A stretch of DNA of 41,900 nt from Prevotellaceae bacterium (GTDB lineage: Bacteria; Bacteroidota; Bacteroidia; Bacteroidales; UBA932), in assembly GCA_031270845.1 (NCBI GenBank), contig JAISXF010000050.1:1-41900 (forward strand). Direction: 5' to 3'. Below the pieces are notes generated by a model. That model searched no databases. It was not told the DNA's origin and saw only the letters and a program-made list of their open reading frames with translations. Positions within the stretch are counted from its first letter, which is position 1. The number at the start of each line of letters is the position of its first letter. Positions 1,909 through 41,900 of the stretch are shown one piece after another. The position numbers and the translations under genes were made by a program.

Positions 1909-2739
1909 ATGACTTCCGAAATCATTCATGAGCGTTTAATTGAAGGCCTGCGGCAATTTTTTTTACAAAATAAAAAAACCGATGCCGTTGTCGGGCTGTC
2001 GGGAGGGATTGACTCGGCAGTGGTGGCTGCGTTGGCCGTCGAGGCATTGGGAAAGGAGCACGTTACGGGCGTGCTGATGCCGTCGCAGTATTCGACGCTG
2101 CATTCCGTAGCCGATGCCGTGATGCTGGCCGAGAACCTCGACATTACGCATTATCTGATACCGATTGAAAGTATTTATCATACCTTTATTAAAGAGCTGG
2201 CGCCGGTTTTCGGAAGCCGGAAAAAGATGGATGTTACCGAAGAAAACCTGCAGGCACGCATCCGCGCGACGCTGCTGATGGCGGTGTCCAATAAATATGA
2301 CTCGCTGGTGCTTAATACATCGAATAAGAGCGAGCTTGCGATGGGTTACGGCACCCTTTACGGCGACCTCATCGGCGCCCTGATGGTGATTGGCGACCTT
2401 TATAAAACACAGGTCTATGACACGGCGCGGTGCCTTAATCACAGCAGGCATGTTGTGCCGCTCAATACGTTGCATAAGGAGCCTTCGGCGGAGTTGCGCC
2501 CCGGGCAAAAGGATCGCGACACGCTGCCGCCTTATCCGGTGCTTGACCCCATCCTGCACGCCCTCATCGACGAGCAGCTGTCGCCCGACGAGGCCATTCA
2601 AAAGGGTTTTGACCCGACGACCGTCGGCCGTGTAGTCCGGCAAATGGAGCGTGTTGCTTTCAAAGGCCACCAGCTACCGTTGCTCCTCAAAATCGGAGAC
2701 CGTCCGTTGCTTGGCAGCGAGAAATGGTTTGTCTGTTAA
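1909..2739 (+). CDS. nadE: NAD(+) synthetase, ammonia-dependent type
   Basis: Converts deamido-NAD to NAD+ using ATP and ammonia. The PP-loop 'SGGIDSAVVAAL' (about residues 30-41), 'NTSNKSELAMGYGTLYGD' and the C-terminal 'KEPSAELRPGQKDRD' loop are all present. At 276 aa it consists of the synthetase domain only; the N-terminal nitrilase-type glutaminase domain of the long, glutamine-using form is absent, so free ammonia or another amidotransferase would be the nitrogen source. It starts two bases after the prs stop and is therefore likely coupled with prs. Downstream lies the 21-bp dyad array and then a bidirectional terminator. Confidence 0.93.
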   Translation: MTSEIIHERLIEGLRQFFLQNKKTDAVVGLSGGIDSAVVAALAVEALGKEHVTGVLMPSQYSTLHSVADAVMLAENLDITHYLIPIESIYHTFIKELAPVFGSRKKMDVTEENLQARIRATLLMAVSNKYDSLVLNTSNKSELAMGYGTLYGDLIGALMVIGDLYKTQVYDTARCLNHSRHVVPLNTLHKEPSAELRPGQKDRDTLPPYPVLDPILHALIDEQLSPDEAIQKGFDPTTVGRVVRQMERVAFKGHQLPLLLKIGDRPLLGSEKWFVC

Positions 2740-2789: not shown

Positions 2790-3062
2790 CTTGGAGTTAA
2801 TAACTCCAAACTTGGAGTTAAAAGCCTCGCGCGCCGAGTTCCGAACTCGGCACGCCGAGTTCCGAACTCGGCACGTCGAGTTCCGAACTCGGCACGTCGA
2901 GTTCCGAACTCGGCACGTCGAGTTCCGAACCCCGCGCGTCGAGTTCCGAACTCGGAATTTGGAGTTCCGAACTCGGCACGTCGAGTTCCGAACCCCGTAC
3001 GTCGGGTTTTGAATGCAGCGCGCCGAGCTCCGAACTCGGCGTATCGGGTTTTGAGGATGTCC
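2790..3062. repeat. 21-bp dyad tandem array (13 units)
   Basis: This is the main content of the 397-bp gap 2740-3136. The motif GAGTT (or GGGTT/GAGCT) recurs at 2794, 2815, 2836, 2857, 2878, 2899, 2920, 2941, 2962, 2983, 3004, 3025 and 3046, exactly 21 bp apart with no indels. Most units contain a near-perfect dyad, CCGAGTTC-C-GAACTCGG; the first unit has TTGGAGTT-AAT-AACTCCAA, which keeps the dyad although bases differ. Because 21 is a multiple of 3, several frames on both strands stay open (ORF-track entries 2724-3140, 2736-3107, 2771-3082, 2791-3012). I regard those as by-products, not genes. Confidence 0.95.
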
Positions 3063-3080: not shown

Positions 3081-3117
3081 AAAAAAAACGTGCGACATTT
3101 GCCGCACGCTCTTTTTT
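3081..3117. terminator. Bidirectional hairpin terminator between nadE/array and the 3137 gene
   Basis: An A8 tract, a six-base stem CGTGCG/CGCACG with an 8-nt loop, then CTCTTTTTT. The A and T runs make it usable in both directions, which suits the convergent arrangement of nadE (+) and the gene at 3137-3607 (-). Confidence 0.75.
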
Positions 3118-3136: not shown

Positions 3137-3607
3137 TTAGTCAATCTGACCGCCTCTTCCTGGCCTGTAAAAGCGTTCTTTCAGCTCGCTGTACACTGTC
3201 TGCGCGCCGGGTACATTCTGCGAAGCCAGCAACTTAACATTGTTGTAAAACCCAAGGGCTGCCAGGTAGGCTTCGCTGCCGGCTACCTTTTCGGTGTCAC
3301 TAATCATGTCAAAAAGCTGACGAACGGAGTTGGCAAGCGTCCGAAGATTGGTGGAGTCCTTAATGTCGGCCTGAAAATTAGTCATGTTAAGGAACGACGG
3401 GCGCAACGAAGGATTCGCCACCGCAAAATCATACGCTTTGCCCCCAAAGGCAATGGTCTTGTCGGCCATCTTCGGGATTGTTTGCCGTTCCTCAGGAGTC
3501 AACGGCGTTACATAAGTAAGCAGCGCCGTAATGACGGCCTCTACTTTTGTTTGTGCGTCCTCCAGCACTGTGGCTGGGATTGGGACGGGGTGTCTGTTTG
3601 AATTCAT
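3137..3607 (-). CDS. Hypothetical protein, 156 aa, probably all-helical
   Basis: Not assignable to a function. The protein is soluble-looking, without signal peptide or membrane segment, and reads as helical with conserved-looking stretches 'ALLTYVTPLTPEERQTIPKM', 'VAGSEAYLAALGFYNNVK' and 'NVPGAQTVYSELKERF'. From memory it resembles a family of ~150-aa uncharacterised proteins of Bacteroidota with the same 'AGSEAY...FYN' and 'VPGA' segments; I cannot verify this. The C-terminus is basic and glycine-rich (RPGRGG). A -7 box (TATA-less form TAAATTTG, minus strand) lies about 46 bp upstream, and a shared terminator lies downstream, so it appears to be a monocistronic, expressed gene flanked by a repeat array. 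Confidence 0.82.
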   Translation of the reverse strand: MNSNRHPVPIPATVLEDAQTKVEAVITALLTYVTPLTPEERQTIPKMADKTIAFGGKAYDFAVANPSLRPSFLNMTNFQADIKDSTNLRTLANSVRQLFDMISDTEKVAGSEAYLAALGFYNNVKLLASQNVPGAQTVYSELKERFYRPGRGGQID

Positions 3608-21477: not shown

Positions 21478-22065
21478 GTGCATGATGATAATTCTCGTGT
21501 GCACGGCGAGAAGAGGGGAGTTTTTTCTTATATTTTTTAAGTGCGTTCTAAAATTTTTTAAGTTTTTTCTAAAATTTTAGAAGTTTTTTCTAAGATTTTT
21601 TAAGTTTTTTCTAAAATTTTTGAAATGCGTTCTTAGATTTTTTAAGTTCTTTCTAAAATTTTGGAAGTTTTTTCTAAAATTTTGGAAGTTTTTTCTAAAA
21701 TTTTGGAAATTCGTTCTAAAATTTTGGAAGTTTTTTCTAAAATTTTGGAAATTCTTTCTAAAATTTTGGAAGTTTTTTCTAAAATTTTGGAAGTTTTTTC
21801 TAAAATTTTGGAAGTTTTTTCTAAAATTTTGGAAGTGCGCGGAGAGATTTGGGGGGGGCGCGATGAGATGAGGCAGGTGCACGATGAGATGAGGCAGGTG
21901 CACGATGAGATGAGGCAGGTGCACGATGAGATGAGGCAGGTGCACGAAGAGATGAGGCAGGTGCACGAAGAGATTTTGCGAGTGCACGATGAGATGAGGC
22001 AGGTGCACGAAGAGATGAGGCAGGTGCACGAAGAGATGAGGCAGGTGCACGATGAAAACTTCTTC
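21478..22065. repeat. Composite 21-bp tandem array, 28 units, two sequence families in one register
   Basis: Units run without indels at 21-bp steps. Two B-like units (21478 gtgcatgatgataattctcgt-type and 21499) are followed by fifteen A units (21520-21834, type gttttttctaaaattttgga+a), one transitional unit (21835-21855), and ten B units (21856-22065, type gtgcacgatgagatgaggca+g). Some A units begin with the B-like GTGCG (21541, 21625 ATGCG). Early A units contain in-frame TAA/TAG, so only the part from 21646 on is open; there it would encode heptads VFSKILE and then VHDEMRQ, both coiled-coil-like. ORF-track entries 21620-21871, 21661-22113 and the antisense ones arise from this. Confidence 0.95.
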
Positions 22066-22565: not shown

Positions 22566-22584
22566 GTAATTTTTTTCTTATAAA

Positions 22585-22647
22585 ACGTAAAACGTAAGAC
22601 GTAAGACGTAAGACGCAAGACGTAAGACGTAAGCCGTAAGACGTAAT
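22585..22647. repeat. 7-bp tandem array (ACGTAAG)n
   Basis: Nine units: ACGTAAA, three ACGTAAG, ACGCAAG, two ACGTAAG, CCGTAAG and ACGTAAT. It is followed at once by ATCCGGCGGAAGCCG, a CGGC-GGAA-GCCG mini-hairpin at 22653-22664. Confidence 0.92.
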
Positions 22648-38931: not shown

Positions 38932-38956
38932 TTAAAAAAGGGGCTCCCTTTTTTAA
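38932..38956. terminator. Intrinsic terminator after alaS
   Basis: TTAAAAAAGGG-GCT-CCCTTTTTTAA, a perfect 11-bp stem with a three-base loop and a T6 run in its right arm, 30 bp after the alaS stop. Its right arm overlaps the start of the 30-bp inverted repeat that follows. Confidence 0.75.
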
Positions 38957-39027
38957 TTACGAATTACGAATTACGAATTACGGCTACGCAGGAAAAACGT
39001 AATTCGTAATTCGTAATTCGTAATTAA
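38953..39027. repeat. Perfect 30-bp inverted repeat built of 7-mers
   Basis: Left arm TTAATTACG plus three more AATTACG units (38953-38982), loop of 15 nt (gctacgcaggaaaaa), right arm CGTAATT x3 plus CGTAATTAA (38998-39027). The arms are exact reverse complements. Then follows ATCCGGCATAAGCC, a variant of the mini-hairpin found after other 7-mer arrays. Confidence 0.95.
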
Positions 39028-41664: not shown

Positions 41665-41703
41665 GGAAAAATAATTACGAATTACGAATTACGAATTACG
41701 GAC

Positions 41704-41731
41704 GTAAGGGCGAAAAATTTTTCGCCCCTAC
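41704..41731. repeat. 28-bp palindrome, core GAAAAATTTTTC
   Basis: GTAAGGGC-GAAAAATTTTTC-GCCCCTAC. Palindromic except one position (A against C). It shares its outer eight bases with the next palindrome. Confidence 0.92.
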
Positions 41732-41759
41732 CTTTAATTACGAATTACGAATTACGGAC

Positions 41760-41787
41760 GTAGGGGCAACACATGTGTTGCCCCTAC
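41760..41787. repeat. 28-bp perfect palindrome, core AACACATGTGTT
   Basis: GTAGGGGC-AACACATGTGTT-GCCCCTAC, perfect over all 28 bp. Both palindromes are preceded by GGAC and a 7-mer run, so they appear to be inserted at equivalent places. Confidence 0.95.
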
Positions 41788-41900
41788 AATGAACGGGGAA
41801 CCCGTAATTCGTAATTCGTAATTCGTAATTCATCCGGCTGTCATTTTGACAGCGTATAGAATATTTTATGTCATTTTGACAGGAAAGCACCCTCGTACCA

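Follow-up and report, generated by a model that had tools for sequence, protein, structure and literature searches.

What is a run of short dyads in strict 21-bp register doing in the gap behind a bacterial nadE gene, and with which of its neighbours does it belong? The window, by which we mean the whole 41,900-nucleotide stretch analysed here, carries this array at positions 2790..3062, where TRF, a unit listing and a dyad scan define 13 units centred at 2800, 2821, 2842, 2863, 2884, 2905, 2926, 2947, 2968, 2989, 3010, 3031 and 3052, in perfect 21-bp register. TRF itself reports 2835-3040 with a period of 21, 9.8 copies, 81% matches and 0% indels. The core dyad is GAGTTCNGAACTC, intact dyads usually read GAGTTCCGAACTC, and the first unit is TTGGAGTTAATAACTCCAA, which keeps its dyad with different bases exactly as the original prediction stated. 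That prediction also counted thirteen dyad sites at exact 21-bp spacing; the 13 units are indeed in register, but the count was generous, as only eight of them (2800, 2842, 2863, 2884, 2905, 2947, 2968 and 3031) keep a good dyad with at least six of seven pairs, the dyads of units 2821, 2926, 2989, 3010 and 3052 being broken.

The array is confirmed as real and chance is excluded, because the genome-wide search for the motif at 21-bp spacing that had been proposed, run with the pattern GAGTTN3AACTC-N8-GAGTTN3AACTC, returned 33 exact tandem pairs and none for the reversed control pattern. The pattern lies on six contigs (C25, C41, C88, C89, C92 and C111), and the motif forms 21-bp arrays on five contigs further to that of the window (C41, C88, C89, C92 and C111), two of these arrays reaching a contig end; the assembly is a fragmented MAG (2.01 Mb, 116 contigs, 85% complete) in which array lengths may be collapsed. 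By our reading the genes of the window are Bacteroidales-like, in agreement with the names of MAGs that have similar arrays.

The array and its neighbours in the window

The array lies between two convergent genes, nadE (NAD synthase; 1909..2739, + strand; PF02540, E=2e-68) on the left and, on the right, an ORF at 3137..3607 on the - strand for a 156-aa protein, modelled as all-helical, of a family with no known match. We refer to this gene as X; its 3′ end faces the array. Between the two sits a bidirectional intrinsic-terminator-like hairpin at 3081..3116, called by the terminator scan at 3116-3081 on the - strand and at 3089-3108 on the + strand. The suggestion that the array is a terminator series after nadE was not upheld, as 3081-3116 is an ordinary bidirectional terminator, the units lack a hairpin plus T-tract each, and terminator-like sites occur only outside the array. 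The original prediction missed the key partner, the 156-aa gene opposite, whose homologues in other phyla have 21-bp arrays on their 3′ side. nadE is probably no part of the X/array module. The array is absent from the orthologous nadE locus of seven same-genus genomes, and in one genome of the genus (G004) rfbD directly follows nadE, X and the array both being absent there, an adjacency that fits joint gain or loss of both.

A CRISPR array was ruled out since the units abut in 21-bp register with no unique spacers between them. ARAGORN called a tRNA-Pro inside the array (2846-2942, - strand), a false positive that the repeated dyads most likely produced; an Rfam scan of the window gave no match and thus no tRNA at this place.

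The window holds further repeats. Two 21-bp arrays with unrelated units stand side by side between convergent genes at 21519-22055: one at 21519..21836 (TRF; unit AGTTTTTTCTAAAATTTTGGA, 15.1 copies), with A/T tracts at a 10-11 bp sub-period and no X adjoining, and one at 21861..22055 (TRF; unit CGATGAGATGAGGCAGGTGCA, 9.3 copies), for which the palindrome test was not significant. Perfect or near-perfect intergenic 7-bp tandem repeats (TTCATAC, TAAGACG, AATTACG) occur at 51-126, 22581-22646, 38955-39025 and 41673-41831.

The 21-bp format in the genome and its relatives

TRF was run on 670 kb, one third of the genome, and found 274 arrays (41 per 100 kb), with period 7 the commonest class (77 of 274). 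Among arrays of at least five copies and a period of 15-70, periods 21 (31 arrays), 42 (6) and 63 (3) made up 40 of 41, and the last had period 23. Dyads with at least six perfect pairs were spaced by 21.0, 42.0 and 63.0 bp in 158, 143 and 111 pairs and by the half-multiples 10.5, 31.5 and 52.5 bp in 59, 52 and 42, over a background of ~2.5 per spacing; the half-integer values arise because symmetric periodic units give them, and 21.0 bp is the real finding. With array periods and dyad distances peaking at the same values, the original view of the 21-bp spacing as more than an accident gained support. Arrays of period 21, 42 or 63 numbered 87 in the sampled third, and the genome probably holds hundreds in this format, nearly all of them away from X.

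Their units are locus-specific, for example TTTGGTTCCCGGGTACCAAAC, AAACGTGCGCACGTTTTACCG and TCCGAGAGCTCTCGGAAACTC, and loci have only format and period in common. The dimeric protein first proposed, taken as one regulator with a single operator, does not fit a genome in which each locus has its own palindrome. Unit sequences that differ per locus and turn over fast do fit the main rival explanation, that the arrays are selfish or neutral minisatellites whose palindromes extrude as hairpins in replication and amplify in 21-bp steps, symmetry being amplified rather than functional. The absence of the array from the nadE locus of the seven genomes points the same way. We regard this explanation as a serious possibility, though we doubt it, and several of the following results bear on it.

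Consensus 21-bp units were more palindromic than shuffles (p<0.05) in 24 of 40 cases, compared with 0 of 11 for 14- or 15-bp units. In 23 palindromic 21-bp arrays the arms were less variable than linkers and loops (5.0% variation in arms against 12.5% in linkers; Wilcoxon p = 3.5e-4; 0/500 shuffles as extreme), and dyad symmetry is thus somehow favoured. The claim that retained symmetry argues for selection on the dyad was sustained in so far as arms vary less than linkers, but clear compensation was seen at two positions only. These emerged from 51 distinct units of six GAGTT-family arrays, in which a C-G/A-T switch of the central pair was compensated in 11 units against 2 single changes (0/2000 permutations as extreme) and one linker pair also changed with compensation. 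Most other arm positions changed singly (pair 5/15: 18 singles, 0 compensated), so that the covariation of half-sites proposed as a check came out divided. Within arrays, compensation was rare (7 compensated pairs against ~80 broken) and adds no support for selection, and for indel depletion, a sign of selection on spacing, the 21-bp arrays were no different from 7/14-bp repeats. As an observation apart, two related 21-bp arrays (L087:18691-18952 and L071:9152-9372) have stems that change with compensation around a loop NNCT, the variants being CGTTA-TCCT-TAACG, CGTTG-AACT-CAACG, CACTG-ACCT-CAGTG and CGTGG-AACT-CCACG.

Arrays with 42-bp units show the spacing of dyads apart from their sequence. 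Seventeen have unrelated halves and nine contain two dyads, whose centres lie exactly 21.0 bp apart in six of the nine (0.007 in shuffled units). Whole-unit symmetry was rejected as a trivial cause of this distance, as the linkers were symmetric at 18 of 82 positions, about chance. The 21.0-bp spacing of unrelated dyads is left unexplained by the minisatellite reading. One family of 42-bp arrays (L042, L045, L047, L050, L051, L052 and L054, many of them at contig ends) has in common a stretch like CTCTCTCGCANGCTGCG, with second halves that differ by locus.

Could the period have an origin outside DNA geometry? Coding repeats were rejected, the top codon-position share being 0.560 against 0.581 in shuffles and open frames numbering 4.03 against 3.99 expected. 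A descent of the 21-bp unit from three diverged 7-bp copies, similar to the heptamers of cyanobacteria and Beggiatoaceae, draws on the lag-7 signal of the GAGTT family (0.43-0.55 against ~0.26) and on the abundance of heptamer arrays in the genome. Over 21-bp arrays generally, however, the lag-7 signal is missing (mean excess -0.01), which refutes it as a general explanation, and arrays of 14, 28 and 35 bp are rare among the long ones. We give this origin next to no likelihood for the format as a whole; it may describe the start of the GAGTT family alone.

The density of 21n arrays (at least 2.5 copies) falls from 10.9 per 100 kb in the source genome to 4.6 in the rest of the genus and 0.5 in the family, and none were seen in 160 kb from the order. 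Intergenic 21n arrays with both neighbours known lie in tandem (21), convergent (11) and divergent (2) gaps, the corresponding numbers for all gaps being 98, 41 and 43. Avoidance of divergent promoter gaps (2/34 against 43/182) is again in line with minisatellites. The format is not always 21 bp: within the genus, dyads are spaced by 20.5/41/61.5 bp in one genome (G006) and by 23/46/69 bp in another (G001), the 41-bp version of the arrays being present in one same-genus genome and the 23-bp version in others. SbcD (TIGR00619) had no match in 9/9 genomes of the genus, against 13/14 control genomes with a match. Loss of SbcD was rejected as the cause of the arrays, since nearly the whole family, poor in arrays, also gave no SbcD match, and yet SbcD is present in many array-bearing genomes of other phyla.

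The X family and its 3′ arrays

The GAGTT tandem pattern was found in 0 of 59 relatives and, across ~85,000 species genomes, in only 25 stretches, from Treponema, Bacteroidales, Planctomycetes, Streptococcaceae, Nostoc, Oscillatoria, Thiosymbion, Burkholderiaceae and others. Many of these are MAGs, and the isolate codes of many look like one termite-gut series, as judged from the codes alone. No similar DNA was found in plasmids, phages or viral contigs. Homologues of X occur in Treponema, Bacteroidales, Cyclobacteriaceae, Nostoc, Thiosymbion and others, and adjoin GAGTT arrays in these five named groups, always with the 3′ end facing the array. The family has no significant match in Pfam, NCBIfam, PHROGs, PADLOC or PDB. 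An AlphaFold2 model of X, of moderate confidence (pLDDT 75.8, pTM 0.51), is all-helical, and a fold search with it gave no match at E below 0.001.

X is present in 17 of 22 genomes chosen for their GAGTT array, often in multiple copies, with one X detected in the source genome, and, among 395 further genomes sampled evenly across Bacteroidota, in 30, about 8%. The chosen genomes, picked by the array, are a biased set; the Bacteroidota sample was drawn blind to arrays and is the fair test of linkage. In this drawn sample, strong 21/42/63-bp periodicity was found within 600 bp on the 3′ side of 11 of 29 X copies and on the 5′ side of none, 18 of the 29 having no strong array within that distance; TRF placed 12 arrays on the 3′ side and 0 on the 5′ side within 500 bp of X. 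In the chosen genomes the array was 3′ of X in 20 of 24 copies and 5′ in 3 of 24. The best lag between 14 and 28 was 21 in 45 of 56 3′ flanks of X as against 8 of 55 5′ flanks, ordinary genes giving 14-21%. Ordinary genes, defined by simple ORF calls, had an array in 1/399 cases (0.3%) in family and order relatives, in 6/171 (3.5%) in the chosen genomes and in 52/442 (11.8%) in the array-rich source genome. No other conserved neighbour of X was seen within 1.5 kb on each side, nor any partner ATPase gene. In a Burkholderiaceae genome (G071), two loci (L183 and L196) have an array of 42- or 126-bp period 5′ of X, the reverse of the usual order. Two features of this linkage, the 3′ bias at X and the exact period of 21 in several phyla, are not explained by minisatellites, for which X would either take part in amplification or be a mobile gene that lands beside arrays.

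The letters of the arrays are far less constant than their place. X-linked units surpassed their shuffled versions in palindromic symmetry (5.29 against 3.47), with p<0.05 in 18 of 33 cases, though several are not clearly palindromic. Unit similarity was clear (0.67) only for X pairs above 70% identity (3 pairs) and hardly above chance for pairs of 55-70% identity (0.52 against 0.47 shuffled). On the X tree the GTTC..GAAC motif is scattered, with no clustering and 10 changes for 10 rows. Gene and array thus remain linked in a fixed format even as the unit sequence changes. Arrays can exist without X, because the source genome has 87 arrays against one detected X and because G001 (94% completeness) has 21n-type arrays with X not detected; the many arrays away from X are also a point in favour of minisatellites.

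A mobile element would account for part of this pattern, with the array as the recognised terminal end of an X element and X-less arrays as remnants after X loss. The multiple copies of X in many genomes agree with it, as do the nadE-rfbD adjacency described above and an X tree that mixes phyla, one supported group holding, for example, copies from Streptococcaceae together with Bacteroidales, and from Planctomycetaceae together with Treponema; part of the X copies and arrays derive from MAGs that may be mis-binned. X lacks a transposase domain, however, Y1_Tnp is undetected in the source genome, and no X was found in the plasmid, phage and viral collections searched. We consider a mobile element improbable.

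Does the array act as RNA? As a transcribed hairpin series it could be an mRNA stabiliser, an attenuator or an RNA partner of X, similar to the repeats of type III toxin-antitoxin systems. As RNA, the window array has a strong fold (z = -7.75), and raw counts on the X strand favour G-U over A-C (85 against 53). Counting repeated changes once reduces this preference in X-linked arrays to 44:32 (p=0.21), no firm bias, and arrays away from X have none (17:16). In 11 of 33 loci (0.4 expected) X and the array are separated by a terminator-like site, which places the array beyond the X transcript in those loci, and no locus has such a site in the 150 bp past the array. An exact 21-bp register would also be no requirement for RNA. 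An RNA-level role is thus very unlikely.

A proposed two-part module and known systems

In several phyla, X is linked to an array on its 3′ side that keeps its period and its dyads, the format staying constant as the letters change fast. That X and array form a module is well supported. We read it as an undescribed two-part module in which the array acts at the DNA level, and put this reading a little short of an even chance; the lack of a fold match for the X model counts against it, as do the arrays that exist away from X, the scarcity of compensation within arrays, the X-linked units with no clear palindrome and the 18 of 29 drawn X copies with no strong array nearby. The proposed layout is X (~155 aa) and, mostly no more than ~200 bp downstream and in many cases beyond a terminator, an exact 21-bp (42/63) tandem array whose units often contain a short palindrome. 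As for mechanism, we infer that the array works as double-stranded DNA. Two helical turns equal 21 bp, and every dyad would accordingly be presented on the same DNA face, so that the phased dyads may form a platform for cooperative assembly of a symmetric protein, most likely X as a putative DNA-binding protein. For such a protein, symmetry and phase would count for more than the bases themselves. Arrays away from X might be its targets in trans or relics of modules since lost, and unequal exchange and slippage would keep units alike within one array. A broader proposal, of a new class of bacterial system in which a small helical protein would build, maintain or read palindrome arrays through symmetry and helical phase rather than sequence, leaving the letters of each locus free while the 21-bp format persists across several phyla, we offer as a tentative and rather doubtful one.

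The literature search, covering open-licence papers, found neither the motif nor gene-linked 21-bp arrays described. Conserved sequence is the usual route to protein-DNA modules, and an X/array module, in which only spacing, symmetry and the place behind X are kept, would escape such searches. If X recognises symmetry and phase, this would be a mode of DNA recognition absent from the open-licence literature searched; if X makes arrays grow, it would offer a handle on the origin of bacterial minisatellites. Either way there is now reason to study a family of unassigned function present in ~8% of sampled Bacteroidota and in several other phyla.

Several known systems resemble the module in part. 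REP/RAYT systems likewise have a gene with adjoining palindromic repeats and more repeats scattered between genes; the REPs of a given genome have their sequence in common, and the gene encodes a Y1_Tnp transposase (PMC3116915, PMC3733652). They were rejected as an explanation, as the source genome (85% complete) and G001 have no Y1_Tnp (PF01797), which is present in 12 of 21 relatives searched, and the locus-specific units form no genome-wide shared repeat family. The BrickBuilt MITE of Porphyromonas gingivalis also consists of intergenic Bacteroidales tandem repeats of similar unit length with predicted stem-loops, and has a 23-nt unit of one shared sequence and a leader and tail with terminal inverted repeats; it differs from the X module in that no associated gene is described (PMC4596501). 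The heptamer repeats of Beggiatoaceae and cyanobacteria are likewise short tandem repeats that abound between genes and are patchily distributed across phyla. The TAACTGA repeats of Beggiatoaceae have a 7-bp unit of one sequence and no palindrome (PMC4679880). In contrast to heptamers, 21-bp arrays in general have no 7-bp sub-period.

Type III toxin-antitoxin systems, too, place a small gene beside a tandem array and separate the two by a terminator. The ToxIN array precedes the toxin on its 5′ side, and both are transcribed together. Type III systems (ToxIN, CptIN, TenpIN) were rejected, as the arrays are 3′ of X in most copies, not 5′, and X is not of the ToxN family, having no Pfam match above chance. 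The sopC-type centromere arrays of F plasmid partition are direct repeats carrying inverted repeats and adjoin the gene of their binding protein. The X module has a similar array with inverted repeats next to a gene, for which a binding role is our proposal. X has no Pfam match and thus no ParB-family domain, and no conserved partner ATPase gene adjoins it. Unlike the sopC-type arrays, the X module is chromosomal and often multi-copy, and its letters differ from locus to locus.
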